Part shown: positions 10,256 to 47,585 of the stretch, one piece after another
Layout of the letters: every line of letters begins with the position of its first letter
Position numbering within the stretch: the stretch's first letter is position 1
Source of the DNA: Acidobacteriota bacterium
Lineage (GTDB): Bacteria > Acidobacteriota > Terriglobia > Acidiferrales > UBA7541
Assembly: GCA_003223215.1 (NCBI GenBank)
Contig: QHYH01000159.1
Coordinates: 1-51,782, forward strand
Length of the DNA stretch: 51,782 nucleotides
Direction: 5' to 3'
The notes under the pieces: generated by a model
Seen by the model: the letters and a program-made list of their open reading frames with translations, nothing else
Told to the model about the DNA's origin: nothing
Databases searched by the model: none
Made by a program: the position numbers and the translations under genes

Positions 10256-13200
10256 TTAGAAGACGACTTTGAAGCCGAACTCCAGCGAGCGAGGGGCGCC
10301 TAGCGCAAACACGCCAGACCCCAGCCCAACCAGGTTCGACCGGTTCCCGCGCGTCGTGCCGTTCAACGTTCCCGCCGTTCCATTCAGGATGCCGCTCAGC
10401 GGCTGGCTTGGCGAGTCGAAGTTCTGGCGGTTGAACAGATTATAGACGCTAACCTGGGGCTCAATCGTCAGGCGCTCCCACCGATGATCTGGCTTTATCT
10501 TCCATCCGAGCTTCAGGTCAAAGGTAAACATGTTGCCGAGGCCTTCCTCACCCGCTGGCGGAGCCGAAATCGTCGGCGTAACTGCGCCTAGCGCGACCAG
10601 CTGCGTCTGGGTGAAGAGCCCGGCGTCTACCAGCGCCTGCCCAGCGGGAGTCAGCTTGCCTGCGCCGCTCGAATTCCACTGGCTGATCAGGCTCGCCAGT
10701 CCAGTAACGCCGATATCTCGACCGAAAGAGCCGATTCCTGTCCCCGTCAGCAAGTCACCAGATTGGCCGCTGGTGTTGCCGGCCAGCGAGCCGTCGCCGT
10801 CCAAGTCCGAAGTAAAGATTGCTCCGGATATCCCATTGGCTGGCGAAGGCAGGAACACGCTTGACGGCAGCGGGCTGTACCAGTGCGTGATGAAGCTTAT
10901 CGCTCCGCCGTACTTGAAGTCCATGGCTGCCCCGGCCGAGAACTGATGCCTGCGGTCCAGCCCGTTCGGCCCTCTGAGACTCGTATTCCGGAAACTGAAC
11001 GCGTTATTGATGAAGTCTCCGTCGCGCGCCTTGGCCGTCAGCCGCGAAAACGCATACGAAGCGACGAAGTTCACGTTCGTCATGCCTCGGACCGGGTTAG
11101 CTTTCTGTGACGTGAGTTTCACTTGCAGTGCGTTGTACGCGGACCGGCCGATAGGAAAGAGCATTTGGTTCGCTCCGACATTGGCGTTAATCCCCGGGAA
11201 GGCAGCCCCTGTATCCGGCGTCCGACCGGTAGCGGGAGCTCCGAGGCTACCCAGGAAACCGTAGCCAGAATCAAGGCCGTGCGCTGCAAAGTCAAAGATA
11301 GTCGCGGGACCCGCGCTGGGCATCGTAGGTGGGTTCGCCGAATGGAGTCCTGGGCAAGCAGCGATCGCTTGGTCAATTGTGCTGACGCCGCAGGCCTTCA
11401 GTGTAGCGGCAATGGCGTTTTGTGCGGCAGTCGTGTTTAGGTACCGCGCATCGCCCACGTGGTTTGTGTCGTAACCAAGCAGACTATGCAAGCCAATGTT
11501 GCGGAGATAATCCACGGTCAACACTGTGCCTGGCCGCAATTCTCGCTGCACGCCAATGTTGAATTGCATGGAATACGGGGTACGGTAGCTCGGCGCGAGA
11601 AGCTCGGTTCCGGTGTTATTGAACGAATCCGCCAGAATGTTACCGATAAAACCCGAATTGCTCTGGGCTCCCGCACTTGCTGTTGCCTGCTGCAAGGTCT
11701 GTTCGACGGCCATTGCATCGCTGACAACGCTCCCGATAGGCTGGCCGCAAACCTGCGTCGAAATGTTCTTGCCGTTGATCGTCGTCTGCAAAGTTCCGTT
11801 GGGCAGGGCAATCCCGCCCTGGCTGCAAACTTCCTGGATGCCGAAGAAAATCCCCTTCTGGAGGCGAGGCGGCCTGTCGAAGAGAATGTTGTTCCAGATT
11901 GCATTTTCGTAGTAAACCCCAAACCCCGCTCGAATCGCCGTCTTTCCGTTCTTCCATGGGTCCCAGGCTAGCCCAATTTGCGGCCCAAAGTTTTTGTTTG
12001 GTTGGCGTACACGCCCGCCTAGTCCGGCTCCGAACTGATCGAGCAGATTACCAGTGCAATTGATGATGGATACAGAGCAAGGAATCGGATCAATGTCACT
12101 ATCCGTTCGCCCGGTGTCGCGCACATACCGCAAGCCAATCGTGGCCGTCAGGTTTGACCGGACCTTCCACTGATCCCCGAAATACGCAGTGAATCGTGTG
12201 TCTGACGATCCGCCTGCCGGAAAGCCAAATCCGGGCTTTTCGGTGAAGAACCCTTGGCCGTTTCCGATCAAGATAGCGTCAACGGTGTATGCCAGCGGGT
12301 CCGATTGGCCGGGGACGGGCGTCAAGGAGGTTACGATCGGCGCGGTCCCAACGAAGGCCGCAAAGACAGCTCCCTGAATTCGATTTACGCCAACACCGTA
12401 TCGTAATGTGTGCCGGCCGAACGTGATGCTGCCGTCGTATTTTGTTTGTTTGTTGCTCTGATAGGTCTTCTGTGGCGCCAAAAAGTTAGGTCCAGAGCAG
12501 AACGCATCCACTCCGGCGCCCAAACAAGTTATGTCACCGCCGATGGCGATTGCAATCCCGGGAGCTGGATCCGTGATCCCGGAACCCAGCACTGCGTCAG
12601 CGATTCCGTTGCGGAATTTCGTGTAGCCGAACCGAATGCTGTGTGAAAACGCGCCCGTGTTGAAGTCGAGTCCAGCCGCGTGCACCGGCGTGTGGTCCAC
12701 ATTTTTAAAGGGTGTAAACGTATTCGGTATGAAGCCGCGCACCACGCTGTTCTGCTCGTAAGAGAAACGGTAGAACAATTTCCAGTTGGGCCTCAACTGC
12801 CAGTCCAGCCTTCCAATCGGCTCTAGGTCTCGGAAAGGCGAGTTGTACGTGGCATTGAATGAACTAAAAGGATCCGGAAACACTTGCGCCGCCTGCAAGT
12901 CCTGGTGGGTCCGTTCTAGGCCGCCGAAAAAAAACAGCCTGTCCTTCAGCATTGGCCCGCCCAGGCGCGCACCGTATTGCTTGCGATCGAAGGGTACGGG
13001 AATCAAGCTTTGCTTGGCCGCAACGCTGTCGCCCCTCCAGTAGAAGAATCCTTCACCATGGACGTCATTCGCACCCGAGCGCGTCACGACGTTAATGGTG
13101 CCGGTGGATGTCAGCTCTGTTGAAAGATCTAGATTCGATTGGCCCACCTGAAACTCGCCGATGGCGATCTGTGGGATATTTTGGGTGGTCGTCCCGACGG

Positions 13201-13843
13201 TTTCATCGCTGATATCAATCCCGTCCACCTCAATTCGAGCAGTTCTCCCAAAATGCCCAGCGAAGGAGACAGAGGAGAAGCCATTTTTCGTGGGGTCGAA
13301 ATTGGCGCCATCCTGAATCTGAACGCCCGGCTCGAGCTGTGCGAGATCGAGAAAGTTCCTCCCGTTGACTGGCAGATTCTCAATCTGTTCAGCAGTGAGC
13401 ACGCCCTGCACCGTCGCCTGCTCGGTGTTCACCGAAATCGCTGAGCTCTCCACCCTGAGGACCGTGCTTTCCGAGCCGAGCTCGAATGTAACGTTTGCGG
13501 TTGTGATTATGCCGACAGCTACGACAACCGTTTGCTCGACTGTCTTGAATCCTTTCGCCGCTACCCGAACTACATACTGCCCCGGCGGGAGAGGGCCGGA
13601 ATTATAAGTTCCAGCCGACGTGACCTCCGGCTCCAACATCTGTCCCGTGTCTTTATTCGTGATCGTAACCTTGGCAGAGACTACGACCGCGCCTTTCGGG
13701 TCCAGAATCGCTCCCTGAACGCTTCCGGTGGAGATTGTGGCCTGGGTGCTTGCCTTTGGCGGAGCGACAAGCATTACACCCAAGAAAAGAGCGGCGACTA
13801 CCGACAGTGCGACAAATGAGATACCGCTGCGGCTATGACGCAT
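10256..13843 (-). CDS. Oar-type TonB-dependent receptor (1195 aa)
   Basis: An outer-membrane receptor with a signal peptide (VALSVVAALFLGVMLVAP, cleavage near residue 34). A carboxypeptidase-regulatory-like beta-sandwich follows at about 40-125 (GSVQGAILDPKGAVVVSAKV). Next is a plug domain with TAEQIENLPVNGRNFLDL near 150 and STGTINVVTRSGANDVHG near 250, then a long beta-barrel from about residue 290 (DRLFFFGGLERTHQD). It ends in the aromatic strand EFGFKVVF needed for barrel assembly. Size and layout fit the Oar-like receptors that are greatly expanded in Acidobacteria and usually linked to uptake of large organic substrates. Substrate unknown. It sits between two tRNA-Arg scars, so it is probably island cargo. 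Confidence 0.93.
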   Translation of the reverse strand: MRHSRSGISFVALSVVAALFLGVMLVAPPKASTQATISTGSVQGAILDPKGAVVVSAKVTITNKDTGQMLEPEVTSAGTYNSGPLPPGQYVVRVAAKGFKTVEQTVVVAVGIITTANVTFELGSESTVLRVESSAISVNTEQATVQGVLTAEQIENLPVNGRNFLDLAQLEPGVQIQDGANFDPTKNGFSSVSFAGHFGRTARIEVDGIDISDETVGTTTQNIPQIAIGEFQVGQSNLDLSTELTSTGTINVVTRSGANDVHGEGFFYWRGDSVAAKQSLIPVPFDRKQYGARLGGPMLKDRLFFFGGLERTHQDLQAAQVFPDPFSSFNATYNSPFRDLEPIGRLDWQLRPNWKLFYRFSYEQNSVVRGFIPNTFTPFKNVDHTPVHAAGLDFNTGAFSHSIRFGYTKFRNGIADAVLGSGITDPAPGIAIAIGGDITCLGAGVDAFCSGPNFLAPQKTYQSNKQTKYDGSITFGRHTLRYGVGVNRIQGAVFAAFVGTAPIVTSLTPVPGQSDPLAYTVDAILIGNGQGFFTEKPGFGFPAGGSSDTRFTAYFGDQWKVRSNLTATIGLRYVRDTGRTDSDIDPIPCSVSIINCTGNLLDQFGAGLGGRVRQPNKNFGPQIGLAWDPWKNGKTAIRAGFGVYYENAIWNNILFDRPPRLQKGIFFGIQEVCSQGGIALPNGTLQTTINGKNISTQVCGQPIGSVVSDAMAVEQTLQQATASAGAQSNSGFIGNILADSFNNTGTELLAPSYRTPYSMQFNIGVQRELRPGTVLTVDYLRNIGLHSLLGYDTNHVGDARYLNTTAAQNAIAATLKACGVSTIDQAIAACPGLHSANPPTMPSAGPATIFDFAAHGLDSGYGFLGSLGAPATGRTPDTGAAFPGINANVGANQMLFPIGRSAYNALQVKLTSQKANPVRGMTNVNFVASYAFSRLTAKARDGDFINNAFSFRNTSLRGPNGLDRRHQFSAGAAMDFKYGGAISFITHWYSPLPSSVFLPSPANGISGAIFTSDLDGDGSLAGNTSGQSGDLLTGTGIGSFGRDIGVTGLASLISQWNSSGAGKLTPAGQALVDAGLFTQTQLVALGAVTPTISAPPAGEEGLGNMFTFDLKLGWKIKPDHRWERLTIEPQVSVYNLFNRQNFDSPSQPLSGILNGTAGTLNGTTRGNRSNLVGLGSGVFALGAPRSLEFGFKVVF

Positions 13844-18358: not shown

Positions 18359-21280
18359 TCAAAACTCGAAATCCAAAGAGAACTGGATTTGGCGAGCACC
18401 GGTTCCGGCAATCGGTTGCCTAAATCCGGGTATCGGAGTCAACCCTGAGCCGAATACCGGATTGATCTGCGAGACGTTCGCACTGTTGAACAGGTTGAAG
18501 AATTCCGCTACCACGTCGAGCCGTTTCACCCCGCCGAACGGGAAGTACTTCAGAACGCGAAAGTCCATCGTGGCCAGTGTGGATGTCTTCAGAGAGTTTC
18601 TGCCGAGTCCGAATGGTCTGGCCGAGAGGGGAAAGGCGTGACTCTGATTCGAGTCAAGGCCCGTCAACGGGTTTACAGGCCGGCCACTTTCCAGTGTCCA
18701 AATCGGCGCCACTTCAATATGGCTGAAGGTGTCCGTGAGCCAGCCGGTGCTTTCTTCCGACTTCCTACCTTTGTCCTCTTCCTCCCCAATAGGCAAGTCC
18801 CAGAGTGCATTGAAGACGAAGCGCTGTTGCTGATGCTGGCGGGAGACCGCGTGCTCCATACGCAGATTGAAAGGATTTTGGGGCTGCTCGTCGAAGTCCG
18901 AGGCGTCGTCAAATGTCTTCGAGAGGGTGTAACTCGCCGAGAACGCCAGCTCATCGCTCATCCGCCGGTTAAGCGTGAATGAAACGCCGTTGTAGGCCGA
19001 ACTCGCAGAATTCTGGAGCGCATAAATGTCGCTGAACTGGGTGTTGAGCCGACCAGGGGAAAAGACATCTCGCCCGATCTGCTGTGACGTTGGATTTAGA
19101 ACACCAAGGCTAGACGCGTTCGCAACAGTGAGGACGACCGGAGGCAACAAATTAACATTAAGTGTTCGAGACAGCTTAAGTCCATGAACAAACAACTCGT
19201 CAGCGCGCAGCGTAAGATTCTTCGCGAGCAAGTATTCCGCACCGGCGCTGGCTTGTTGGCTGTAGGGAGTCGCCATGCACGGATCGGGTTGGAAGATCGA
19301 TGGGGCAATCCCGGATGCAGGCACAACAAGGGGCCCGCCCTGTGCTGCCGCAGAAAGACTGGCTGCTGCGTTTCCGTCTGCTACTTGCTCGAATGCCTGT
19401 GAACCGTTCTTTTCGATGGCTCGCGTCAGGTTTGCGAGAACATACCGGTCGAAGAAAACTCCATACCCCGCACGAAAAACCCATCTAGGAGACGGACTCC
19501 AAGCGAGACCAATTCGCGGGCTGACGTTATTCGTGTCTTGATTGAATCCAGAAGGCAGGCGCTCGAGGTCGTAACGCACGCCGAGATCAACCGTCAGTTG
19601 GCGGGCGATGGACCAATGATCCTGAACGAATCCGCCGAAACTCGTCACCGGAAAATCCACGTTCGAATTCCCGAACGCCTGTCGAAACTGACTAGGATTC
19701 CCCGCGAGGAAATCACCGAGAGAGCCAAAGAGATACACGCTGTCGAAGCCATCCGGTACGTCGGCACGCAGTCTGATGCGATTCACAGTTCCGCCAACCT
19801 TCCAAAGGTGTTTCCCCCACGTCCGAGAATAGGTATAGCTGGCTTGATAATGGTTTTCGCGACGTTTGCCGTTCCCCGCATAGGGCCGTCCAAAGGTGAC
19901 GAGTCCAGCGATATCAATCTCCGGGCCGACGGGCTCATTCGTGCGCAGGACCGCATGGCGGGTTGCGGCCTGAAAGCGTAGATCGCTAACGGCTTCCGAG
20001 CCTAAGACAGTGGTGAGCGAACCCGAAAGAGCGTTGTCGCTCGTGAAGCTGCTGCCGCGCGCGCTTGCGTCTATGAGGCCATTGCTGTTGAACGCATCGC
20101 CTGATTCCTTGTTGTTTGTGAAGGTGTAGCGCAGCATCAGAGCAGTATTTTTCGTGAGCTGGTGATCGAGCTTGCCCGCAGCTTCCGTTTCCGCGCGCGC
20201 AATCGGAGAGAAAGCTGTCGTGATCTGGCGCGTTGCTAGCCCTGGAAATGCTCCCGTCGCGAGGAAGGCATTTATGGTTGATGTCACGGCAGGGTCAATA
20301 TCCGACCCGATTTGCCCTCGGTTGTGTTCTCGTTCGAGGGCGCTGTAGTAAAACGTTTTGTCCCTGATGACAGGTCCACCCAGAGCGAAACCGGCGCGGA
20401 ACCGACGAAATGATGGTTTGCCCGATTCAGTTTCGAAGGGGTCCCTCGCGTTGAATGCACCGTCCTGCGCAAATAGGAAGGCGTCGCCGTGAATCGCGTT
20501 TGTTCCAGAACGAGTGATTATGTTGATCGAACCCCCCGAGGCTCCGCCCGACTCTGCTGAAAGGCCATTGTTGACCACTTGAAATTCCTGCACGATTTCC
20601 GGCGAAAGCTCGGTGCGACTCGAACCCGCGTACTCGTCGTCGTTGTCCAGGCCATCGATGGAGAGATTGTTGCTCCGCGATCTCAGTCCACCGAAAGTGA
20701 AGCCACTGCCAGTAAGTGGCGTCGAACCGCTCGCGCCGGAGGGTATCGGTGAACTCGAAACGCCTGGTGCAAGGAGAACGAAATCCAGGTAATTTCGGCT
20801 CCGCACAGGCAGTTCTTCTATCCTCTCTTGATCCACAGTGGAAACGACTGACGACTGTGAGGGATCAAGTGACGAGGGCTGGGCATTGACGGTCACTTGT
20901 TCAGCCGCCGACGCCGGAGCTAGCACGATGTCGAGATGCACGGTTTGTCCGAGACTCGCTACAACACCTGCTCGCCGATAAGGTGCAAAGCCTGTCTGTT
21001 CCACTCGCACTTCATAGGTGCCGACAGCAAGCTGCGCTGCTCGAAAGAACCCCTGCTCATCCGTTGTTACAGTACGGGATTGATTGGTCAAGGGGTTGTG
21101 CAACGTAACTTTCGAGTTGGGAATGACAGCGCCGCTGGTGTCGCTCACAATGCCCTCAAGAGTTGCTCCAACCCGCGACGCTTGAGCGGCGGCGCCAGCC
21201 GCGCAAAACAACAAAGCAAACGATACGGCAACCCCAATAGCAATATGACGCCCGGAAAAGGAACGGCAAGCCAGAATCAT
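18359..21280 (-). CDS. Oar-type TonB-dependent receptor (973 aa)
   Basis: Signal peptide (AIGVAVSFALLFCAAGAAAQ) at residues 1-33, then a carboxypeptidase-regulatory-like domain (ATLEGIVSDTSGAVIPNSKV) to about residue 125. The plug follows, with ERIEELPVRSRNYLDFVLLA near 150 and GGSINIITRSGTNAIHGDAF near 245, then the beta-barrel, closing with ARQIQFSLDFEF. All structural parts are present and the length is in the usual range. It is shorter than the two neighbouring receptors and clearly not a recent duplicate of either. Ligand unknown; the adjacent phospholipase gene on the same strand suggests exploitation of organic debris, which is inference. Confidence 0.93.
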   Translation of the reverse strand: MILACRSFSGRHIAIGVAVSFALLFCAAGAAAQASRVGATLEGIVSDTSGAVIPNSKVTLHNPLTNQSRTVTTDEQGFFRAAQLAVGTYEVRVEQTGFAPYRRAGVVASLGQTVHLDIVLAPASAAEQVTVNAQPSSLDPSQSSVVSTVDQERIEELPVRSRNYLDFVLLAPGVSSSPIPSGASGSTPLTGSGFTFGGLRSRSNNLSIDGLDNDDEYAGSSRTELSPEIVQEFQVVNNGLSAESGGASGGSINIITRSGTNAIHGDAFLFAQDGAFNARDPFETESGKPSFRRFRAGFALGGPVIRDKTFYYSALEREHNRGQIGSDIDPAVTSTINAFLATGAFPGLATRQITTAFSPIARAETEAAGKLDHQLTKNTALMLRYTFTNNKESGDAFNSNGLIDASARGSSFTSDNALSGSLTTVLGSEAVSDLRFQAATRHAVLRTNEPVGPEIDIAGLVTFGRPYAGNGKRRENHYQASYTYSRTWGKHLWKVGGTVNRIRLRADVPDGFDSVYLFGSLGDFLAGNPSQFRQAFGNSNVDFPVTSFGGFVQDHWSIARQLTVDLGVRYDLERLPSGFNQDTNNVSPRIGLAWSPSPRWVFRAGYGVFFDRYVLANLTRAIEKNGSQAFEQVADGNAAASLSAAAQGGPLVVPASGIAPSIFQPDPCMATPYSQQASAGAEYLLAKNLTLRADELFVHGLKLSRTLNVNLLPPVVLTVANASSLGVLNPTSQQIGRDVFSPGRLNTQFSDIYALQNSASSAYNGVSFTLNRRMSDELAFSASYTLSKTFDDASDFDEQPQNPFNLRMEHAVSRQHQQQRFVFNALWDLPIGEEEDKGRKSEESTGWLTDTFSHIEVAPIWTLESGRPVNPLTGLDSNQSHAFPLSARPFGLGRNSLKTSTLATMDFRVLKYFPFGGVKRLDVVAEFFNLFNSANVSQINPVFGSGLTPIPGFRQPIAGTGARQIQFSLDFEF

Positions 21281-21802: not shown

Positions 21803-23323
21803 CTAGCACGGACCACTTGGTCGAACCGCCGTTCCAGGTTCTTGCGTTGGAGAGCTCTGCGGGTTCGGAACTTCATATGGTGTTGTGCCAATCAGGCTGG
21901 CTGCACACTCCGTAAGTATCTGCGGTATTGCCGGAAGCGTGGACGGCAGAGCGGGTATCGACTGATCGGATTTTCTGAAGTTAAATGCGCTCGTGAGATC
22001 GCCAACGGTGGCGCGCCGCCATGCAGACAAGTTAGGCACTTCGACGCCAAAACGCGTTTCGAGGAATCGCAGCACTGAAGTGTGGTCGAAGAGCGCCGAT
22101 GATACAAATCCACCCCTGCTGAACGGAGAGATCACAAGCATCGGCACACGAAAACCCAATCCAATGGGGCCGAGAATGGGAGGATTGCCGATCACCGTGG
22201 GGTCCGGGACTGCGGGTGCAGTGACGTATTCGCCGGGGGTGCCTGGGGGCGCTGTCACCGGCGCGACGTGGTCAAAGAAGCCGCCATTCTCATCGTAGGT
22301 GGCGAACAGGACCGTCTTCGCCCATAGCGCCGAATTCGCGGTCAAAGCACTGATAATCGCGGACAGGGTGTTCTCCCCAAAGAGTGAGGGCGCTGGCGGA
22401 TGATCGGAGTCAACGATCGAGGCGAGCACCCAAGAGACTTGTGGCAGGTTTCCAGACAACGCATCCGCCAGAAAATCAGCCGGAAACTGGGGCCCGAATG
22501 CGTTCTGGTAGAGCGTCGATGCGGGGTTCTGGAAATTCTTGAAGTACGAGAGAACATTGTCGGAGAAAATGGTGTTCAGAATATTCTGGTCAGGTGACGA
22601 GTAGACCTTCCACGAAATTCCGCGAGCCTGAAGCTGTTCAGGCATCGTCGTATAGGTCAGTTTGCCGAAGAACGACGACCGATTTGCGACTAGCGTTTGA
22701 AGTAAGGGCCCACCGTTCTGTCCAGCTGGGTCGATGGAAGCCGCCATGGTGTAGAGCCGGTTAGGATCCGTGGGGCCGATCACCGAGCAGAAATAGTTGT
22801 CGCATACGGTGAAGGCGTCAGCCACGGCATAGTAAAAAGGAAGGTCTGCGCGCGTGTAGTAGCCCAGGGCGAGTACGGCATCATTGGAATTGGTCGCGAG
22901 GCGAGAGGTCACAAAGCCATCCATTGCGCCACTGTCCCAGCTCTGATGCTGCGGCACCCAGTCATGAGTGATGTCGTGGGTGCATGCAGCGTTCGTCTTG
23001 GAAGTATCGAGATGGAATGGAAGCAATACGCCGGCCGGCGGGTTCGTGGTATTTGCAGGGTCGGGTTGCTGGAATGCTGGACTCTGTTCGGCGAATCCAC
23101 GCACGCCGCGGTAGCTTCCGAAATAATGGTCGAAGGACCGATTTTCCTGGATGAAAATGACGACGTGCTCGATGTCAGTCAGTTTGGAGCAAACGGATGG
23201 AGCGGGACCGGGGGAAGTACCTCCTCCGCCGCAACCAGGCAGAAGCACAGCCGCGAGCTCAGCTGCAGCCGTGGCGGCGCCAATTTTCAATAAATCTCGA
23301 CGGGTAACATCCCTGGAAGGCAT
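21803..23323 (-). CDS. Tat-exported phospholipase C / acid phosphatase-like lipoprotein
   Basis: A 506-residue phosphoesterase-family (alkaline-phosphatase-like fold) protein. The N-terminus carries a twin-arginine signal (TRRDLLKIGAA) ending in the lipobox LPGC, so the protein is predicted to be folded before export and lipid-anchored. HVVIFIQENRSFDHYFG at about residue 53 is the family signature. YDENGGFFDHVAPV near 345 carries metal-site residues, and the later FRVPMLVISPFSRGG fits bacterial non-haemolytic phospholipase C and AcpA proteins. Expected to hydrolyse phosphodiesters or phosphomonoesters of lipids or nucleotides. Start supported by AGGAAAG upstream. Confidence 0.88.
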   Translation of the reverse strand: MPSRDVTRRDLLKIGAATAAAELAAVLLPGCGGGGTSPGPAPSVCSKLTDIEHVVIFIQENRSFDHYFGSYRGVRGFAEQSPAFQQPDPANTTNPPAGVLLPFHLDTSKTNAACTHDITHDWVPQHQSWDSGAMDGFVTSRLATNSNDAVLALGYYTRADLPFYYAVADAFTVCDNYFCSVIGPTDPNRLYTMAASIDPAGQNGGPLLQTLVANRSSFFGKLTYTTMPEQLQARGISWKVYSSPDQNILNTIFSDNVLSYFKNFQNPASTLYQNAFGPQFPADFLADALSGNLPQVSWVLASIVDSDHPPAPSLFGENTLSAIISALTANSALWAKTVLFATYDENGGFFDHVAPVTAPPGTPGEYVTAPAVPDPTVIGNPPILGPIGLGFRVPMLVISPFSRGGFVSSALFDHTSVLRFLETRFGVEVPNLSAWRRATVGDLTSAFNFRKSDQSIPALPSTLPAIPQILTECAASLIGTTPYEVPNPQSSPTQEPGTAVRPSGPC

Positions 23324-24344: not shown

Positions 24345-27300
24345 TTAAAAATTAAGCTTTAGGCCGAGCTGGATGACCCGGTTCGGTTCGCCAATGGCGA
24401 TCACCGTTGCCGAAGACGGCAGCGAAGCCGAGACGCAGCAAGTCCGGGCGAAGATACTGCTTTGAACGCTGGGCGACCCGGACGTCGCGTTGCGGGGATT
24501 TTCCCAGTTTGTGTGGTTTAAAACGTTGAAGAACTCCGCCCGAAACTGCAGTTTGAAGCGTTCCGTCAGGCCAAAGTCTTTCAATAGTCCCGAATCCAGG
24601 TTCCAGAAATTGGGCCCTTGTACGATGTTGCGACCATTGCCATTCTGTCCCGGCGGCGGAATGCAGAAGAACGTCTGAGTGCTAGTAACGTTGACGCAGT
24701 TGAAATTGGGGTCGGTGGGGTTGGTGATGAGTTGTCCCACGTTGTACATTACCGGGCCTTCCACTCCATTCACAAACTGCACGTGGCCCTTGTCCAGCGG
24801 CCCCCTTACCTGCGCGAAGCTAACATGCGCTCCATTGGTCGTCAGCGAACCGCTCGTGATGCTGTACGGTTCCCCGCTCTGGTATGCGAAGATGCCGGTG
24901 TACGACCAACCCCCGATAATCTGATTCGCCCAGCCCGGCGCGGACGAAGCGAGTTTCTTGCCCTTGCCGATGGGTAATTCGTAAAGCAGATTGGTCAAAA
25001 GTACGTGCGTATTGTTGAAGTCCGAGAGCGCCCGATCCAAGCGCCAGTTATGGATGTCCGTCGGCGTGCGGCTATTCGTCGTGCTCAGGCCACCGCCGGT
25101 GGCTGCACCGGTCGGGTCGATAGACATGTCGTCAATGGACTTGCTGAAAGTGTAGGAGAAGGACAGGTCCAGCCCTTGCTCGAAGCGCCGCCGGGCGGCG
25201 ATGAACAAACCGTGGTAGTAAGAATCACCACCAGAATCCTGGAAGAAGATTTGGCCGAACTGAGGATTGGGGCGGAAGAAATTCCTCGGGAGCGCGCTGT
25301 TCGCCGCGCTGTTCGGATCCCAAAAGGTACCAGCGCCAGTCAGGCTGTCCACAAAATTGGCAAAATTCCCGATGTTGAATGTGTCGAAGTCGGATGCTCT
25401 ATTGTTCAGGTTGGAGTTGGCAACTCCCGCAGTGCTGCCCGTTAATTGGAGAAGTAATGCCGGCGTTTGACCGGTCACGCCAACAGGGCAGGCGGTTCCG
25501 TCCGCTCTGCAACCAAGCTGCCGGTTGCCCATGGCGATTTTGAACGAATCGAGGAAGCCAGCTCCGTTAACGGAAACCTGGTTCAGATCGTAGGCTCTAT
25601 AAAGGTGTGTCCCGCGCTTCCCGATGTAGCCGATTTCCGCCACGAAATGCCTCGGAAGCTCGCGCTGAATCGTCAAATCCCATTCGTGAACGGAGGGATT
25701 CTTGATGTTCGGATCGAAGGCACCAACAGCCGGAGCGCCGCCTGCAGCCTGTTGCGCGGGCGTCACTGCCACAGAAGGTGTAATGGCTGGAGTCGGAACA
25801 GCGGTGGGAAACCCCGTGGAGATTCGGCTGCTGTTCCCGGTGGCGGTAATCCCATTTGGGAGCACACAGCCTGAGGTCGTGGTTGCGGCTCCAGACGAGT
25901 TAATCGTCGTTATGCAGTTCAGCAAAAAGCCTGGCATTTTGCCGGCCATTGCTGTTACCTGAAATGTAGAGAGTGTGTCAAAGAGCCAAGAATATCCGGC
26001 GCGCACCGAGGTTTTATCGTCGGGCGACCACGCTATCCCTATGCGCGGGCCAACCGCGCCGATGTTGTTATTCTGGAACCAGCGGTCAGCTTTCATATAG
26101 GTTACGGCGCCCTGTGAACCGTCAGGGAAGACATTAGGGACGAGAGATTGCTTGGCGTCGTAAGGAGCGGGATTGTATTCCCACCGCACGCCCAAGTTAA
26201 GGGTAAGATTCGGCCGCAACTTCCATTCATCCTGCACGTAGGAGTCATACTGGTGTGCGCGCGTGTAGACAGTCGCGAAATTCGTGCTGCCATAGGTATT
26301 GCTGGCGAAGTTGGCCAAGAACGCCTGCTGGATACGGCTGGGGATGCCAGCCAATTCGTCGATGGCTTGCTGTAGCCGATTGATGTCCGTTGAATTCGCG
26401 CATGTCGGGCAAGTGGCGGCATTGCCCGCCGCCGGAATGTTATTGAATCCTGCCAAACGGTTGCTGCGATTGAACCGGATGATCGGCGTAACAACGCTGC
26501 TGCCGAAGAACCCGCGGCTGTCATTGTGTATGTAGAATCGGAAGTTGATTCCCGCCCGAAGTGTGTGCGCCCCGTGAACCCACGTGATGTTGTCCACGAG
26601 CTGTGGCGTGGTGATCGCACGTTGTGTGTGTGGCGACAGGCAGTACGGCCCGTCGACGTTCAGCGTCGATCCCAGCACACAGTCGTCAGCCCAGATGGGA
26701 ACCTTCTGTGGATTCGGAAAGTTGGGATTGGACTCTCCGAAGGTGAATTGAAACGCGAAGCGGTTGAAACCGGCCGTGAATTCGTTCACCAGCGTCGGCG
26801 AAAAATTATGTCGGTAGCTGATTGCCAGATTCTTCCCAAGCCGGTTCACTTCACCCAGTGGTGGAAATCCGGGGTACACCTGGGGCCGTGCGTTGAGGAA
26901 GTCACCTTGCTTGGTATCGAAAGTATTTTGCAGCCACCGGACAAAGACGCTGTCATTGGGACCAAACGTGTGATCCACTCGCACATAGTAGTTGGGCCCT
27001 TTGAATTGGGAAGGCGGGTTCCAGTTGAATCCGGCTTGATTGAGTCCGTCACCCAGGCTGAAAGCGTTGGCAGCCGGAAAGCTGTTCATCAGCGCCAGCA
27101 CCGCCGGATCTCCGCCGATTCCTTGCGGGTCGTTGGCGAACATATTGTAGCTGTCCACGCAGTTGCCCACGATCGTCGAGCCATTGCACACCGGAACGCC
27201 GGGCTTCAGATTGCCATTGGTGTCTACCAGGAGTGGTGAATTGCGTGTGACCGTTGAGCCGCCCACGTTGATTGATCCGCGCACGAACCGGAAAATCCCC

Positions 27301-28298
27301 GATCGCGCCAGCGACGTGTAGACCGTCGGCGCTCCGAAGCCCGCTATGCCTACGTTGGTGGCCGAGACTGGCTCCGTCTGGTTGATTTGGTTATTCTGAA
27401 AGCTGCCGAAGAAAAACGTTTTGTTCTTGATGATCGGGCCGCCCACCGCAAAACCATATTCGTTGAGCTTCAGCTCCGGGCGCTTTTTCCCCTCGTAATT
27501 GCTGAACCACTCGTTTGCGTTGTAGTCCGTATTCCGATTGAAATAAAACGCTGACCCGTGGAGAGAGTTGGTGCCGGGCTTGGTAGCCACGATCACGTTT
27601 GCGCCGCTGTTCCGTCCTTGTTCAGCCGTGGCGCCCAGCGTGACAGTTCGGAACTCCTCCACATTATCGGGATTCAGCCGCTGAATATTCCCTTGTGGGT
27701 TCGGCACCGTCGACTCATTGGCGTCAATGCCGTCAATCGTGACGTTATGCGAGCGGTCACGAGAGCCAAATACGTGTGTACCGGAGCCTGCGCCATTGGT
27801 CGTGCGTTGTACCACGCCTGGCTCCAATGTCAGCAGCGCCAGCGGGTTGCGCCCGTTCAGCGGCAGGTCCTGTACCTGTTTCGTATCCATGATATCGCTC
27901 ACGGTGGCGTTGGACGTTTCCAGGCGCTGATAGTTCGATTCCACTACTTCCACGGACTGCCCGACGGTCCCCAATTTCAAGGTCACGTCCACAACCAGCG
28001 GTGTACCAACCGTCAGTATGTTGTGAATGCTGCTAAAGGTTTGGAACCCGGTAAGCGATACGGTGATGCTGTAACTTCCCGGAGTCAGCGATGCGAAGGA
28101 ATAATTGCCGGAACTTGTCGTGTTTTGACTGAACACTACGCCCGTTTCTTCGTTCTTTGCTTCGACTTTGGCGTTAGCTACGACAGCTCCGGATGCATCT
28201 ATTACAGCCCCAGTAATCGACGACGTACTGACTTGTGCGGAAAGGGAAAAGACACCCGAGAGCAACCCCAACAGAATTAAGACGGCATACTTCCTCAT
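24345..28298 (-). CDS. Oar-type TonB-dependent receptor (about 1317 aa)
   Basis: The start is set at ATG 28298, where a signal peptide begins (MRKYAVLILLGLLSGVFSLS); the frame is open 27 codons further upstream. A carboxypeptidase-regulatory-like domain (SSITGAVIDASGAVVANAKV) follows, then a plug with QVQDLPLNGRNPLALLTLEP near 155 and SGANVIVATKPGTNSLHGSA near 245, and a very long barrel ending NRVIQLGLKLNF. Features such as the PIIKNKTFFFGSF motif are those of acidobacterial Oar-like receptors. It is the largest of the three. A poly-G run lies between the start and the usual SD position, so translation initiation may be unusual. Confidence 0.92.
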   Translation of the reverse strand: MRKYAVLILLGLLSGVFSLSAQVSTSSITGAVIDASGAVVANAKVEAKNEETGVVFSQNTTSSGNYSFASLTPGSYSITVSLTGFQTFSSIHNILTVGTPLVVDVTLKLGTVGQSVEVVESNYQRLETSNATVSDIMDTKQVQDLPLNGRNPLALLTLEPGVVQRTTNGAGSGTHVFGSRDRSHNVTIDGIDANESTVPNPQGNIQRLNPDNVEEFRTVTLGATAEQGRNSGANVIVATKPGTNSLHGSAFYFNRNTDYNANEWFSNYEGKKRPELKLNEYGFAVGGPIIKNKTFFFGSFQNNQINQTEPVSATNVGIAGFGAPTVYTSLARSGIFRFVRGSINVGGSTVTRNSPLLVDTNGNLKPGVPVCNGSTIVGNCVDSYNMFANDPQGIGGDPAVLALMNSFPAANAFSLGDGLNQAGFNWNPPSQFKGPNYYVRVDHTFGPNDSVFVRWLQNTFDTKQGDFLNARPQVYPGFPPLGEVNRLGKNLAISYRHNFSPTLVNEFTAGFNRFAFQFTFGESNPNFPNPQKVPIWADDCVLGSTLNVDGPYCLSPHTQRAITTPQLVDNITWVHGAHTLRAGINFRFYIHNDSRGFFGSSVVTPIIRFNRSNRLAGFNNIPAAGNAATCPTCANSTDINRLQQAIDELAGIPSRIQQAFLANFASNTYGSTNFATVYTRAHQYDSYVQDEWKLRPNLTLNLGVRWEYNPAPYDAKQSLVPNVFPDGSQGAVTYMKADRWFQNNNIGAVGPRIGIAWSPDDKTSVRAGYSWLFDTLSTFQVTAMAGKMPGFLLNCITTINSSGAATTTSGCVLPNGITATGNSSRISTGFPTAVPTPAITPSVAVTPAQQAAGGAPAVGAFDPNIKNPSVHEWDLTIQRELPRHFVAEIGYIGKRGTHLYRAYDLNQVSVNGAGFLDSFKIAMGNRQLGCRADGTACPVGVTGQTPALLLQLTGSTAGVANSNLNNRASDFDTFNIGNFANFVDSLTGAGTFWDPNSAANSALPRNFFRPNPQFGQIFFQDSGGDSYYHGLFIAARRRFEQGLDLSFSYTFSKSIDDMSIDPTGAATGGGLSTTNSRTPTDIHNWRLDRALSDFNNTHVLLTNLLYELPIGKGKKLASSAPGWANQIIGGWSYTGIFAYQSGEPYSITSGSLTTNGAHVSFAQVRGPLDKGHVQFVNGVEGPVMYNVGQLITNPTDPNFNCVNVTSTQTFFCIPPPGQNGNGRNIVQGPNFWNLDSGLLKDFGLTERFKLQFRAEFFNVLNHTNWENPRNATSGSPSVQSSIFARTCCVSASLPSSATVIAIGEPNRVIQLGLKLNF

Positions 28299-28379
28299 CA
28301 CGGAACACCCCCCCATCAATGTTTCGCAGCTTGTGGAAAGGTAAAGTAGGCACAACCGAATTGCAACTGAACGCGGCAA

Positions 28380-29051: not shown

Positions 29052-29128
29052 TGGTGCGCCCTGGGTGATTCGAACACCCGACCTTCTGGTTCGTAGCCAG
29101 ACGCTCTATCCAGCTGAGCTAAGGGCGC
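29052..29128 (-). tRNA. tRNA-Arg(ACG), intact, CCA encoded
   Basis: The full cloverleaf can be drawn: acceptor GCGCCCT/AGGGCGC, D-arm GCTC-AGCTGGATA-GAGC, anticodon arm TCTGG-CTACGAA-CCAGA, variable AGGTC, T-arm GGGTG-TTCGAAT-CACCC, discriminator A and CCA. Anticodon ACG is normally edited to ICG by TadA, which is encoded at 46958. The T-arm differs from that of the displaced halves at 9.7 and 14.8 kb, suggesting that the present 3' half was supplied by an integrating element. Confidence 0.95.
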
Positions 29129-31223: not shown

Positions 31224-32441
31224 TCAGCCCACTGCTGAGCCGCCTCGTCCGAAAACCACGCGATGTTCTTCCGGACCGAAACAAACGACAATTGCCCCGG
31301 CCACAAGCACGATCAGTGCGAACAGGCCCATAGCCCGCCCATAGCTCATGAAGTGAGCCATGCGCGCTTCGAAATACGCGCTGCCGGAAGCAATCAAGAC
31401 GCCCAGTTGGTAAGCGAAGCCAGGGAAAAACCCCCGTAGGGTATCAGGTGACAGCTCGTTAATGTGGGCTGGAATGACGCCCCAGGCACCCTGCACCATA
31501 AATTGCATCAGGAATCCTCCCGCCAGAATCAGCGGAAGATTGGGCGCGAACACCCAAATCGGAATCAGCAAGCAACCCAGAAGCAAAGCTGTCACCATCG
31601 CGAGGCGTCGCCCTCTGTAATCGGAAAAATATCCGAACGCTAGGCCGCCGCAGATCGCGCCAACCATGGCAAACGCGGTGACGTCCGAGGTGCGCTGCGG
31701 GCTGAAACCGTGCTGGTGCTGCAAGTAGGTGGGGTACATGTCTTGTGTGCCGTGAGAGATGAAGTTCACCATGGCCATCAGCACCACGAGATAGGCAAAG
31801 CGCTGCCAGTTTCCGAATATCGCTCGGCGGTAACTCGCCCAATCCGTGCGCGAACGGTGCCAAGCTTCGGGCTCTTTCACTTTTGCGCGGACAAAAAGCG
31901 TAAGCAGCGCCGGCAGTCCGCCGACAAAAAACAGCGGGCGCCACCCCCAGTGCGGATAAACAAGGCGGTACGCCCCGGCTGCGAGCAAGAATCCCAGCGC
32001 ATAGCCTTCCTGCAATAGCCCGGAAATGAGCCCCCGCCATCTCGCAGGGATCGACTCCATGGTGAGCGAAGCTCCCACGCCCCACTCGCCGCCCATGCCG
32101 ATGCCGTAGAGCAGGCGCAGGAAAAAGAAGGTTCGATAGTCCGGAGCAAGTCCGGACAAGACTTCTATGAGTGAGTAATACAGGATATTGATGACCAGCG
32201 GAATGCGGCGCCCATAGCGGTCCGCAAGCAAGCCGAATAGGATGGCCCCGATCCAGCGTGTGGCCAGACTCGCCGCAATAGTTAGCGTCATGGCCGGGAG
32301 CGTTTTGCCAAACTCCGCCGCGATGGGCGCCAAAACAAAGGTCAGAACAAAGAAGTCGAACGCATCGAAGGTCCAGCCGAGGAATCCGGCCAGGACTGCA
32401 TTGTGAGTGCCAGGGCGGACCGGTTCAACAGAATCCACCAT
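31224..32441 (-). CDS. MFS transporter (metabolite:H+ symporter / sialate-symporter-like)
   Basis: A 405-residue 12-helix carrier. GFLGWTFDAFDFFVLTFVLA is the conserved TM1 with paired acids of the NanT/JEN-like and aromatic-acid MFS groups. LLADRYGRRIPL between TM2 and TM3 is the MFS A-motif, and GYFSDYRGRRLAM repeats it in the second half. It begins one base after the stop of the symporter gene (TGAGATG), so the two are translationally coupled. A carboxylate or amino-acid-like substrate is likely; a role in import or export of products of the neighbouring D-amino-acid deacylase is inferred from context. Confidence 0.88.
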   Translation of the reverse strand: MVDSVEPVRPGTHNAVLAGFLGWTFDAFDFFVLTFVLAPIAAEFGKTLPAMTLTIAASLATRWIGAILFGLLADRYGRRIPLVINILYYSLIEVLSGLAPDYRTFFFLRLLYGIGMGGEWGVGASLTMESIPARWRGLISGLLQEGYALGFLLAAGAYRLVYPHWGWRPLFFVGGLPALLTLFVRAKVKEPEAWHRSRTDWASYRRAIFGNWQRFAYLVVLMAMVNFISHGTQDMYPTYLQHQHGFSPQRTSDVTAFAMVGAICGGLAFGYFSDYRGRRLAMVTALLLGCLLIPIWVFAPNLPLILAGGFLMQFMVQGAWGVIPAHINELSPDTLRGFFPGFAYQLGVLIASGSAYFEARMAHFMSYGRAMGLFALIVLVAGAIVVCFGPEEHRVVFGRGGSAVG

Positions 32442-32442
32442 C

Positions 32443-34236
32443 TCAATCCGCGCTCCACTCGTGGGCGCGAGGCATCAGACGTGAAAGCAGCACGGCGCAG
32501 ATGGCCGCGAGCACCAGCAGCACAAAGCCGAATCCTATTTTCCCTAGAAGCATCTTCCCCGAACCAAACAACGCCAGATACACCATGGCGCAGCCGAGCG
32601 CCCAGGATAATAGGTTACGCCCCAGATCCCGCGTTTGCGGGACGTCCTGCACCAATTGCGCGACCGGCCCCCAACCGGCAACATGGGGCCGAACCTTCCG
32701 GTAGAATTTCACCAACACGTCTTCCCTTTCCGGCCTGGTCAGGAAGGTTACGGCGATCCACACGAAGGACGTCAGGACCGTGGTAACGAGAGCGTTCTTC
32801 GCGAATAGCACCGCTTCGGATCCGGAAAACGGTTTCAGCAAGGAAAGCGCAGCCGTCACGGCAATGGCCGTGGCCATGGCGGCGATTTCGCTCCAGGCAT
32901 TGATCCGCCACCAATACCAGCGCAAGAGGTACACACCGCCCGTGCCGGCGCCAATGGTCAACACCACCTCCCAGCCCGCGACAATCGAGCCGAGCCGGGC
33001 CGAGACGTAGGCCGAAACCACCACGAGAAGCACGGTCGCGAACCGCGAGATCAAAACGTAATGCTTCTCCGTGCCGTCGCGCTTCACGAAGCGGCGATAG
33101 AAGTCTGCAACGAGATAGGACGCGCCCCAATTCAGTTGCGTGGCGACTGTGGACATAAACGCCGCCATGAACCCGGCAAACACCACGCCTCGCAGCGCGT
33201 GCGGCAAATGTTCCGCAACGATGCGCATGTACGCAGGCTCCGGTTGCGAGAGGCCTGGATACAAAACAATCACTGCCAGCGCGGCCAAAATCCACGGCCA
33301 GGGACGCAGCGCGTAATGCGCGACGTTGTACCACAACACAGAAAGCAGGCCGTTACGTTCGTCCCGTGCGCTGAAAATGCGCTGCGCGATGTATCCGCCT
33401 CCACCTGGTTCGGCTCCCGGGTACCAAAACGCCCACCACTGCAGGCCGAGATACACCGTGAACGTGATTACGGGAAGGGCCCACATTGCCTGGAAGGTGA
33501 AGGGGCGGGAAAAATCAGGGAAGAAAGCGGTGGGATCGGCGGCAGCAGGTCCCGCTGCCGCGCGCATCGCGTCGAGCTTCGCAAGCATGGCGTGCATCCC
33601 GCCAACCGCGTCGATCGCGTACCACGCAATGCCGATGACGATGGCCATTTTCAGGACAAACTGAAAGAGATCGGTCCACAACACCCCCCAGAGGCCGCCT
33701 AGCGCCACGTAGAATCCGGTGAATGGAATCAGGAAGAAGACGCAAACCCACAGCGAGGTTGCTTCGCTGATTCCCAGGCTGGCGGCCACGATAGCGGTCA
33801 TGGCTTTTGTGACCCATCCGAGGATCAGGCAGTTCATCAGCAAGCCGAGATAAAGCGCTCGAAAGCCCCGCAAGAATGCGGCGGGCTTTCCCGAGTAGCG
33901 CATTTCCGCGAACTGCACGTCGGTCAGGAGCCCAGAGCGGCGCCACAACCGCGCAAAGAGAAACACGGTCATCATGCCCGAAGGCAAAAAGCTCCACCAG
34001 AACCAGTTGCCGGCGATGCCGTTTCTGTAGACGAGGCCAGTGACCACTAGCGGCGTGTCCGCGGCAAACGTTGTCGCCACCATGGAAGTCCCCGCCAACC
34101 ACCAGGAAACGTTGCGGCCCGAGACGAAGTAATCTTCCGTGCTTTTCCCCGAGCGGCTCCGGAAATACAAACCGAGAACCAGCGTGACCAGCAGATAGCC
34201 AACGATGGCGGCCCAATCGGCAACAGTGAAAGTCAA
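32443..34236 (-). CDS. Sodium:solute symporter (SSS family)
   Basis: A 597-residue protein with 13 or more membrane helices. The N-terminus is typical for SSS carriers: DWAAIVGYLLVTLVLGLYF, then SGKSTEDYFVSGRNVSWWLA and GTSMVATTFAADTPLVVTG. The LeuT-fold core and sodium-site helices follow, and the C-terminus has extra hydrophobic segments. The likely start is TTG 34236, preceded by AAAGGA; no ATG fits better. It couples solute uptake to the sodium gradient. The substrate is unknown, but clustering with a D-glutamate deacylase-like gene and an MFS carrier points to an amino-acid or acyl-amino-acid substrate. Confidence 0.9.
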   Translation of the reverse strand: MTFTVADWAAIVGYLLVTLVLGLYFRSRSGKSTEDYFVSGRNVSWWLAGTSMVATTFAADTPLVVTGLVYRNGIAGNWFWWSFLPSGMMTVFLFARLWRRSGLLTDVQFAEMRYSGKPAAFLRGFRALYLGLLMNCLILGWVTKAMTAIVAASLGISEATSLWVCVFFLIPFTGFYVALGGLWGVLWTDLFQFVLKMAIVIGIAWYAIDAVGGMHAMLAKLDAMRAAAGPAAADPTAFFPDFSRPFTFQAMWALPVITFTVYLGLQWWAFWYPGAEPGGGGYIAQRIFSARDERNGLLSVLWYNVAHYALRPWPWILAALAVIVLYPGLSQPEPAYMRIVAEHLPHALRGVVFAGFMAAFMSTVATQLNWGASYLVADFYRRFVKRDGTEKHYVLISRFATVLLVVVSAYVSARLGSIVAGWEVVLTIGAGTGGVYLLRWYWWRINAWSEIAAMATAIAVTAALSLLKPFSGSEAVLFAKNALVTTVLTSFVWIAVTFLTRPEREDVLVKFYRKVRPHVAGWGPVAQLVQDVPQTRDLGRNLLSWALGCAMVYLALFGSGKMLLGKIGFGFVLLVLAAICAVLLSRLMPRAHEWSAD

Positions 34237-34522
34237 AGTGGCGGATCCTTTCCCTATAAGTGCTTGCCAGAACAGTGCGCCGTACTGTATAGCACTTTCC
34301 CGGCCCTGTCCCTACCGCCTTCTCGCGCGCTCGGCAATGTGCACCAGCGCGGGGGAAGCCCCCGGGGAAGCCCCGGTGCTTCATTCTTGTGGGGGGCCGG
34401 CATGCTGCGCCCCGGTTGGCAGTGAACGCCTTCTCCCGGTCCCTTTTCGGCCAGCTCCCGTGTTGCAACGGGCGTGTTGAAACGGGCGCACCGGAAATCG
34501 CGTCAAAGGCTTCGTTGAAGCC
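34237..34522. other. Intergenic, GC-rich with direct repeats
   Basis: GGGGAAGCCCC occurs at 34352-34362 and again at 34364-34374. The segment separates the deacylase from the symporter genes and may hold a separate promoter or attenuating structure for the transporters. No gene is seen. Confidence 0.35.
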
Positions 34523-36010
34523 TTACTGCGAGGCAGGCGCGCGCACCCCGTGTCCCGGGAATACGCCCTCAACGAGGTTCCCATTCTTAACCACGGGCAC
34601 TCCGCCTACCAGCACAAACGGAATCCCCTCGGAATATTGCAGCGGCTTTTCGTACGTAGCTCTGTCAATGACTGTGCCGGGATCAAAGACCGTGATGTCC
34701 GCGTCGGCGCCCACGCGAATTCTCCCTTTTTCGTTGAATGCGGGCGCACGTTTCTGCAGCCGCTCGGCCGGCATCAACGTCATTTTTTTCAGCGCGGTCA
34801 TTAAGTCGAGCGCCTTTTCCTCACGCACGTAATGGCCGAGCACACGTGCGTAAGTCCCCGCGGTGCGCGGGTGCCCTTTGCCGTTCAAGAGATGGCCATC
34901 GCTGGCAATCATCGTGAGTGGGCTTTCGATGGCGGCATCGATGTTCTCCAGGGTGTTCGAGGGAAGAATAATCATCCCACCCTGTTTGCGGTACCGCAGG
35001 AACAAATCGCGTGTCAGATGTTCGGCGGTCGCGGGCCAGAGAAGCGAAGCAAAATAGCTGTCGGGCTCGTTTTCCTTGTGATCGAAAATCGCAGATTGAA
35101 TGCTGGTCATGCCCATCGTGTAGGGATAGGCTTCGGTGGTCACGTCCATGCCGTGTGAGCGAGCCTCCGAAATCATCTGCAGTTCGTAGGCCACATCGGG
35201 TCCCCCGGTGCTCTGGATGTGCACGATGTGCAGCGGCGCACCAGTGATCGCTGCGGCTGCGACGGCTTCCTCAAAGCCGCTGAAGTTTCCCGGAGAGGCC
35301 CCGATTCTCGGCGCTCCGCTGCGAATATGAATGTGACAAGACGCGTGATACTTTGCCGCGACGCGAAACACCTGCGTGATCTCCCCATTGGTCGCTGCTT
35401 CGGTATAAGCCGGGCCGATGCCCACGGCCAGAGCACCGCTCCTTAGTCCCTTCTCGAGAAGGGACATGATCTGTTCCATTTCCTCCGGTGTTGCTTCGCG
35501 GTGAGCCGCATCTCCGCTCGGCAGGAGTCCTCCGGGATCGTGCATCACCGCCATTCGAACGGGAATGTGACCCACGCTGGCGCCATAGTTGATAAGTGCT
35601 TTGTCCTCCCGCTCTCCATACCAACGGTCAACATCTGCCACGCCGACTTCCAATTCCAACGCCGTGGTCACGCCGTCGCGGGCCTTCGCCCTGTAGTTCT
35701 CGTCATCCTGGCCGTGTTGGTGCAAATCGATGAAGCCGGGTGCAACCACAAGACCCTTGGCATCGATCGTTTGCCTCCCTTGCAATGCCGCGCTGCTGAT
35801 AGCTCGAATTTTGCCACCGCTGATTCCCACATTGCGCACCGCATCCAGTCCCGATTCAGGATCCATCACTCTTCCGTTTGTGATCGCCACGTCATACGAT
35901 ACTTCCTGCGCGCAAAGCGACCTTGCCCCGCCAAATGCACAGACAAGCGACGCGACGCCGAAACTTGCCAGCAGCATTTTGTTTGTGCTTCCGTCGCGCC
36001 GCTCCGCCAT
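34523..36010 (-). CDS. Exported N-acyl-D-glutamate deacylase-like amidohydrolase
   Basis: A 495-residue protein. Residues 1-35 form an export signal (LLASFGVASLVCAFGGARS). The amidohydrolase barrel follows: AITNGRVMDPESGLDAVRNV, then APGFIDLHQHGQDDENY with the HxH metal pair near residue 96, GVTTALELEVG with Glu as the likely bridging ligand (typical D-aminoacylases have Cys here), HIRSGAPRIG and HIVHIQSTGG with further His, and IASDGHL with the catalytic Asp near 370. The sequence pattern fits the D-glutamate deacylase branch. It would release D-amino acids from N-acylated forms in the periplasm. It is the first gene of the minus-strand catabolic cluster. Confidence 0.85.
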   Translation of the reverse strand: MAERRDGSTNKMLLASFGVASLVCAFGGARSLCAQEVSYDVAITNGRVMDPESGLDAVRNVGISGGKIRAISSAALQGRQTIDAKGLVVAPGFIDLHQHGQDDENYRAKARDGVTTALELEVGVADVDRWYGEREDKALINYGASVGHIPVRMAVMHDPGGLLPSGDAAHREATPEEMEQIMSLLEKGLRSGALAVGIGPAYTEAATNGEITQVFRVAAKYHASCHIHIRSGAPRIGASPGNFSGFEEAVAAAAITGAPLHIVHIQSTGGPDVAYELQMISEARSHGMDVTTEAYPYTMGMTSIQSAIFDHKENEPDSYFASLLWPATAEHLTRDLFLRYRKQGGMIILPSNTLENIDAAIESPLTMIASDGHLLNGKGHPRTAGTYARVLGHYVREEKALDLMTALKKMTLMPAERLQKRAPAFNEKGRIRVGADADITVFDPGTVIDRATYEKPLQYSEGIPFVLVGGVPVVKNGNLVEGVFPGHGVRAPASQ

Positions 36011-36250: not shown

Positions 36251-36288
36251 AGAAAAGAAAACCCGGGTCGCGGGGGGGCGACCCGGGT
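36251..36288 (-). terminator. Rho-independent terminator
   Basis: ACCCGGGTCGC (36261-36271) pairs perfectly with GCGACCCGGGT (36278-36288) around a six-G loop. On the minus strand the stem is followed by TTTTCTTTTCTTT. It terminates the two small minus-strand genes at 36327-36742. Confidence 0.85.

Positions 36289-47495: not shown

Positions 47496-47585
<90 letters not shown>

Follow-up and report, generated by a model that had tools for sequence, protein, structure and literature searches.

A predicted exported amidohydrolase of the D-aminoacylase fold and two neighbouring carriers: a possible scavenging module in an acidobacterium

The window analysed here, 51,782 nucleotides (nt) long, is one entire contig (QHYH01000159.1, C76 in our numbering) of the 8.8-Mb genome of an Acidobacteriota bacterium, assembled in 279 contigs (GCA_003223215.1). 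Its longest reading frames between positions 31224 and 36010 are three minus-strand open reading frames (ORFs) that fill the interval exactly, and their Pfam and NCBIfam matches confirmed the first-pass annotation of this DNA as encoding a deacylase-like amidohydrolase, an SSF symporter and an MFS carrier. The reading that we favour, with a probability of about one half, is that of a small scavenging module in which a periplasmic, Glu-type metal amidohydrolase would release a product that the two carriers may import. A module of this kind is plausible, but the evidence does not earn it the D-amino-acid label first given to it. The three genes and the gap between the first two are:

34523-36010, minus strand: predicted exported amidohydrolase, NCBIfam NF006560 (PRK09061), D-aminoacylase fold; 495 amino acids (aa), ATG start
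34237-34522, minus strand: intergenic gap between the enzyme and SSF genes, 286 nt
32443-34236, minus strand: SSF-type sodium:solute symporter with a match to SSF (Pfam); 597 aa, TTG start
31224-32441, minus strand: MFS carrier, nearest named family TIGR00891 (sialate:H+ symport), below cut-off; 405 aa, ATG start

In Pfam, the ORFs match Amidohydro_3/Amidohydro_1 (enzyme), SSF (6.8e-32) and MFS_1 (7.2e-34). They are considered real genes because nearly full-length homologues are found in G345, a genome of the same genus, with identities of 84% (enzyme), 92% (SSF) and 85% (MFS); the MFS frame of G345 is interrupted by one TAG, and inserted between its enzyme and SSF genes (L068:12308-16831) are ABC_tran and MacB_PCD/FtsX genes. 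The two transporters had also been described as coupled, which holds for the SSF and MFS genes by their spacing only, the MFS start lying 1 nt past the SSF stop.

The enzyme matches the NCBIfam model NF006560 ('amidohydrolase family protein') with 523 bits for a cut-off of 340, and all 63 aligned members described below match it at E <= 1e-30. Proteins of this type bear the label 'D-glutamate deacylase' in other databases, while the NF006560 model itself carries no function; no paper in the open-licence literature was recognisable, from its title and the start of its abstract, as characterising an NF006560 protein. The closest PDB sequence match of the enzyme is the N-acyl-D-glutamate deacylase 3gip (1.3e-37). 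Its AlphaFold model (pLDDT 92.8, pTM 0.90), a D-aminoacylase-like beta/alpha-barrel with a small beta-domain, matches the same structure with a Z of 47.8 over 423 residues and a root-mean-square deviation of 2.4, and 1rjq and 9kb3 (OngB) with Z of 48.3 and 47.1; the fold match has a TM of about 0.77. D-aminoacylases, N-acyl-D-glutamate deacylase and OngB are the top structural matches (Z 46-48), the next group following at about 35. The enzyme is probably a metal-dependent amidohydrolase. A hydrophobic N-terminal segment, scored by simple hydropathy and by no signal-peptide predictor, precedes the enzyme domain in 137 of the 141 evaluable proteins (158 examined including that of the window, some of these loci having been fetched twice). 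Export to the periplasm by this N-terminal signal can be inferred, which supports the earlier description of an exported amidohydrolase adjoining two importer-type genes. The branch is found at E <= 1e-80 in 112 of the 399 genomes of the window's class. Among the best 80 of 415 relatives, the nearest named ones are acidobacterial metagenome-assembled genomes (MAGs), two of them labelled 'gp2', and others come from MAG records of Gemmatimonadetes, Verrucomicrobia, Chloroflexi, Bacteroidales and Betaproteobacteria.

Active-site residues were compared over 63 alignment rows, that is the window and 62 of these 80 loci, very similar or short ones having been dropped. The 415 confirmed relatives were found by two search patterns, one of which (DGVTTALE[LM]) includes Glu119; Glu121 and position 266 lie outside both. 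According to PMC12017989, the D-aminoacylase group is marked by a metal site of the Cys/His/His type, by a catalytic Asp and by a Tyr, a Lys and an Arg that hold the alpha-carboxylate, this Lys being reported as strictly conserved in AfDam-, BbDam- and OngB-like sequences. The corresponding positions of the window gene are:

35639-35671, minus strand: model strand 114-124 (GVTTALELEVG; taken as beta-3) with Glu119 and the invariant Glu121, the latter a putative metal ligand
35213-35221, minus strand: codons of His264 (metal His) to Gln266 (D-aminoacylase Lys position); Lys in 0 of 63 rows
34898-34900, minus strand: codon of Asp371, equivalent of the catalytic Asp; kept in 63 of 63 rows

His228, His264, Asp371, Arg382, Glu121, Glu293, Tyr295 and Tyr297 are invariant over the 63 rows, His97, His99 and Tyr202 are each kept in 62 and Glu119 in 60. 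Asp371 corresponds to the catalytic Asp368 of OngB, and the OngB residues Tyr285 and Arg379 (alpha-carboxylate) and Tyr194 (amide oxygen) are kept as Tyr295, Arg382 and Tyr202, these equivalences being taken through alignments to 3gip and 1m7j. By contrast, Cys is found in none of the rows at the metal-Cys column: the window enzyme has Val122 there, the residues across all rows being V, I, L, G, A, S, R or M. The Cys/His/His metal site of subtype V amidohydrolases is thus absent from the window enzyme. Position 266 is N in 27 rows, T in 18, Q in 11, G in 4, A in 2 and P in 1, and never K. The column of the gamma-carboxylate Arg295 of BbDam is His312 in the window enzyme, within a gapped stretch. 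In a set of 30 rows found through the NF006560 profile (the window and 29 others, 2 of them on the wrong strand), which is free of the pattern bias towards Glu119, Glu119 and Glu121 are each kept in more than 93%.

Glu121 is likely to be the metal ligand that replaces the Cys of D-aminoacylases. The first-pass annotation had described a Glu instead of Cys at the bridging position of this enzyme; the Glu is real and, since it is invariant in 63 of 63 rows, it marks the NF006560 branch and not the window protein alone. An exact one-for-one exchange is not established, because in the ungapped strand match to 3gip the Cys column is occupied by Val122, one residue past Glu121. By these alignments, the NF006560 branch lacks two features of D-amino-acid deacylases, the metal Cys and the carboxylate Lys.

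With BbDam (Bb3285, 3gip) and AfDam (1m7j), the window enzyme shares the fold, the size, the HxH motif, two metal His, the catalytic Asp and the Tyr and Arg of the carboxylate pocket, but its branch carries Glu119 and Glu121 on the strand of the missing metal Cys, and Asn, Thr, Gln, Gly, Ala or Pro in place of their carboxylate Lys. OngB, an N-acetylglucosaminate deacetylase (9kb1), has the same fold and shows that it can act on sugar acids; however, OngB has Cys97 and Lys254, neither of which is present in the NF006560 branch. A further likeness is to CE9 (NagA-type) deacetylases of subtype IV, which according to PMC12017989 have a Glu replacing Cys, a Glu/His/His site and an HxH motif but differ in the insertion domain; CE9 deacetylases are not among the PDB sequence matches listed for the enzyme. 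Two other candidate relatives were set aside. For the Shewanella GalNAc-6-P deacetylase AgaAII, kinship was not borne out, as the available portion of PMC2996990 names no family and its main text is without COG3653. The metal-dependent bile salt hydrolase, described in PMC13081902 with a carboxylated Lys, is not of the NF006560 branch and was rejected.

The genome of the window also encodes D-aminoacylase-like paralogues. Those on contigs C14, C92 and C65 (L244, L245 and L246) have GEG in the Cys region and no HxH and keep the carboxylate Lys, and the one on C4 (L247) has GND with both HxH and the Lys. GNC occurs in none of these four ORFs, among five stretches read; with Glu or Asp in all four, Cys is therefore not the rule in this organism.

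As for the carriers, the SSF protein scores 111.3 bits against PF00474, above the gathering cut-off of 22.8, and 123.2 bits against the sodium/solute symporter model TIGR00813, below the curated cut-off of 184. Its closest PDB match is vSGLT (2xq2; 8.3e-22), of the same SSF family, and it has Ala, Ser and Thr in the columns of vSGLT Ala361, Ser364 and Ser365, which belong to the Na2 site. It differs from vSGLT/SGLT-type symporters, beyond falling short of the TIGR00813 cut-off, in that the columns of Gln69 and Gln428, presumably sugar-site residues, are not kept and hold Thr and Leu. The MFS protein scores 373.5 bits against the sialate:H+ symporter model TIGR00891, below the curated cut-off of 552.9. 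From family membership, the SSF protein would be Na+-coupled and the MFS protein H+-coupled; the substrates of the carriers cannot be read from sequence. MFS relatives with 62-66% identity at three loci (L224, L226 and L234) have a single-chain transketolase gene directly next downstream.

The genes that adjoin the enzyme and carriers give hints on the substrate, none of which is decisive. Of the window neighbours searched, none was recognisable as a gene for a racemase, a D-amino-acid oxidase or peptidoglycan; neither a sugar gene nor an oxidative chitin gene was recognised at the window locus, and a 381-aa ORF downstream in the window has no family match. Elsewhere, one SSF relative of the same genus (L218) adjoins a gene whose GH2 product has an exo-beta-D-glucosaminidase Ig domain, a second (L219) adjoins SIS and DeoR genes and a third (L223) adjoins DHDPS and aldehyde-dehydrogenase genes. 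Two enzyme relatives (L163 and L172) come after DeoR-SIS-PfkB genes; they are the only ones of 52 loci with such a context and are close relatives of each other. Genes for 359-363-aa proteins beside two further enzyme relatives (L159 and L171) were considered as SIS genes and rejected, a SIS relative being found at L163 and L172 only. For another enzyme relative (L127), the gene immediately downstream combines alanine-racemase N and D-serine-dehydratase domains, while one (L113) adjoins a peptidase S51 gene and one (L137) adjoins GntP and HpcH/HpaI aldolase genes.

The arrangement of the three genes was then compared over 89 genomes of the family, in which the SSF gene was detected in 65, the MFS gene in 72 and the enzyme gene in 32 (E <= 1e-60). 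Among the 32 enzyme-bearing genomes, the order is enzyme-SSF-MFS in 15, enzyme-SSF in 3 and enzyme-MFS in 6, with neither carrier directly downstream in 8, so that at least one carrier follows the enzyme directly on the same strand in 24. In two of the enzyme-SSF cases (G458 and G413) the SSF match extends almost to the contig start, only a few bases short of it, and in the third (G538) the SSF frame is broken and the MFS gene comes next. Measured between match ends, the enzyme-SSF gap is 31-163 nt in 16 of 18 cases, the exceptions being the window (289) and G430 (744), and the enzyme-MFS gap is 53-103 nt in the 6 cases. The same-strand order is kept despite many family enzymes being only about 60% identical to that of the window. 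The count took 58 of the 72 MFS-bearing genomes, the other 14 having no SSF or enzyme match on the MFS contig. At 129 other enzyme loci (123 distinct enzyme ends, 99 with at least 3.5 kb downstream, and 3, L284-L286, from the family itself), the stretch covered contains no SSF or MFS relative that reaches 40% identity over 150 aa, and clustering of neighbours outside the family gave no widely conserved partner gene. Co-occurrence in related genomes, on which the cluster had been staked, thus holds within the family, with the full trio in 15 of 32 genomes, and fails beyond it, at 0 of 129 loci.

Trees of the enzyme, SSF and MFS proteins, built on the 26, 34 and 32 rows left after filtering by length and identity, disagree strongly. 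The genomes with the cluster have two types of each protein, each branch with 99-100% support, and five combinations of these types are found with the same gene order at one syntenic locus:

Window: enzyme 1, SSF 1, MFS A
G416, G430, G538: enzyme 2, SSF 1, MFS A
G579, G395: enzyme 1, SSF 2, MFS A
G520, G360, G463: enzyme 2, SSF 2, MFS A
G350, G526, G355, G523, G588: enzyme 2, SSF 2, MFS B

Approximately unbiased (AU) tests, with groups named after the trees had been inspected, reject a shared history (p of 3e-91, 2e-5 and 1e-39), and comparison of the DNA indicates that the flanks are conserved and that the enzyme gene itself was exchanged in place. On this comparative evidence, the types of enzyme, SSF and MFS were exchanged independently while their order was kept. 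Such constancy of order points to a functional link, but recombination at a shared locus would account for it as well.

Upstream of the enzyme lies a terminator-like hairpin, which suggests that the enzyme gene is the first of a transcription unit:

36261-36288, minus strand: terminator-like hairpin of 11 pairs, 9 of them G-C

Across the region, however, terminator-like sites are not clearly above the number expected from shuffles (9 against 7.0, standard deviation 3.0). In the gap at 34237-34522, the scan gave neither a promoter-like site nor a terminator-like one on the minus strand, and a single weak terminator-like site on the plus strand at 34367-34382. Elsewhere, the window carries two tRNA genes (29055-29128, minus strand; 47496-47582, plus strand), three minus-strand genes for outer-membrane proteins with CarboxypepD_reg and OMP_b-brl_4 (10256-13843, 18359-21280 and 24345-28379) and, at 21803-23323, a gene for a phosphocholine-specific phospholipase C-like protein (PF04185; TIGR03396 at 478.4 bits, below the cut-off of 580.25).

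On the genes, predicted fold, conserved residues and within-family order observed, we infer export, metal binding, catalysis, a coupling of enzyme and carriers and the carrier energetics along the following lines. The amidohydrolase would be exported by its N-terminal signal and act in the periplasm, where a metal site of Glu121, His97, His99, His228, His264 and Asp371 (Glu/His/His/His/His/Asp) would hold a water molecule that, with Asp371 as acid/base, would cut an amide (or similar) bond. The substrate would not be held through the alpha-carboxylate Lys of known N-acyl-D-amino-acid deacylases, and the Na+-coupled SSF and H+-coupled MFS carriers would bring one product or both into the cell. 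Several observations weigh against such a module. Neither carrier is directly downstream in 8 of the 32 family genomes with the enzyme (contig ends being near in some), SSF-MFS pairs occur at 8 sites in 7 genomes of the family where no enzyme was detected, the putatively co-transcribed enzyme and SSF genes of the window are 286 nt apart, and in G345, the nearest relative, enzyme and SSF are separated by about 5.6 kb in which ABC-transporter and MacB/FtsX genes lie. Recombination at one shared locus could also shuffle alleles without any functional link. The SSF-MFS pairs without an enzyme, together with the lower frequency of the enzyme than of either carrier in the family, the lack of pairing at the 129 other loci, and the synteny of the entire locus with an enzyme gene exchanged in place, would fit neighbours by location only. 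The SSF and MFS genes would then be a transport unit of their own, and the enzyme gene, which would share no pathway with them, a replaceable passenger at a locus that recombines. This account is possible but doubtful, as 24 of 32 genomes retain the order on one strand, mostly with short gaps, though so many of the enzymes have diverged.

Two further accounts keep the module and assign it a substrate. According to the first, which is that of the first-pass annotation, the enzyme deacylates N-acyl-D-amino acids (of D-Glu or D-Asp) in the periplasm, and the D-amino acids so released enter the cell through the carriers. The closeness to 3gip in sequence and fold, the two of three alpha-carboxylate side chains (Tyr295 and Arg382, by alignment) kept in every row and the racemase/dehydratase gene next to L127 speak for it, but the last is a lone and weak case, the column of the BbDam gamma-carboxylate Arg holds His312 in a gapped stretch, the search of the window neighbours brought up no recognisable D-amino-acid or peptidoglycan gene, and the branch has neither the metal Cys nor the carboxylate Lys. 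We consider it unlikely. A deacetylase acting on an N-acetyl amino sugar or its aldonic acid in the manner of OngB, the carriers importing the amino sugar, is in our judgement improbable. OngB, a GlcNAc1A deacetylase according to PMC12017989, does have the same fold, and the genes around L218 and L219 (SSF relatives) and L163 and L172 (enzyme relatives) are in its favour. However, such enzyme contexts come from a single pair of close relatives, the window locus has no recognised sugar gene, the window SSF does not keep the Gln pair of the vSGLT sugar site, and OngB itself keeps the Cys and Lys that the branch lacks. The scavenging module with a Glu-type enzyme, its substrate left unnamed, is the reading that we retain.

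Taken together, these results allow a wider and tentative proposal, which we put forward as less likely than the module itself: NF006560 may be a separate, widespread branch of the D-aminoacylase fold with a Glu-bridged binuclear site, whose substrates would not be N-acyl-D-amino acids and for which the label D-glutamate deacylase would be wrong throughout. In the family of the window, the branch would be part of a cassette of three genes; its enzyme, SSF and MFS would each be replaced independently of the others at a single locus, as though several variants of one uptake module, differing in substrate, were in exchange. The name 'D-glutamate deacylase', which is in use, implies D-glutamate metabolism, yet two of the residues that define this activity are absent. 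NF006560 being a common and uncharacterised enzyme branch, knowledge of what it acts on would put many annotations right and could point to a nutrient of soil acidobacteria.

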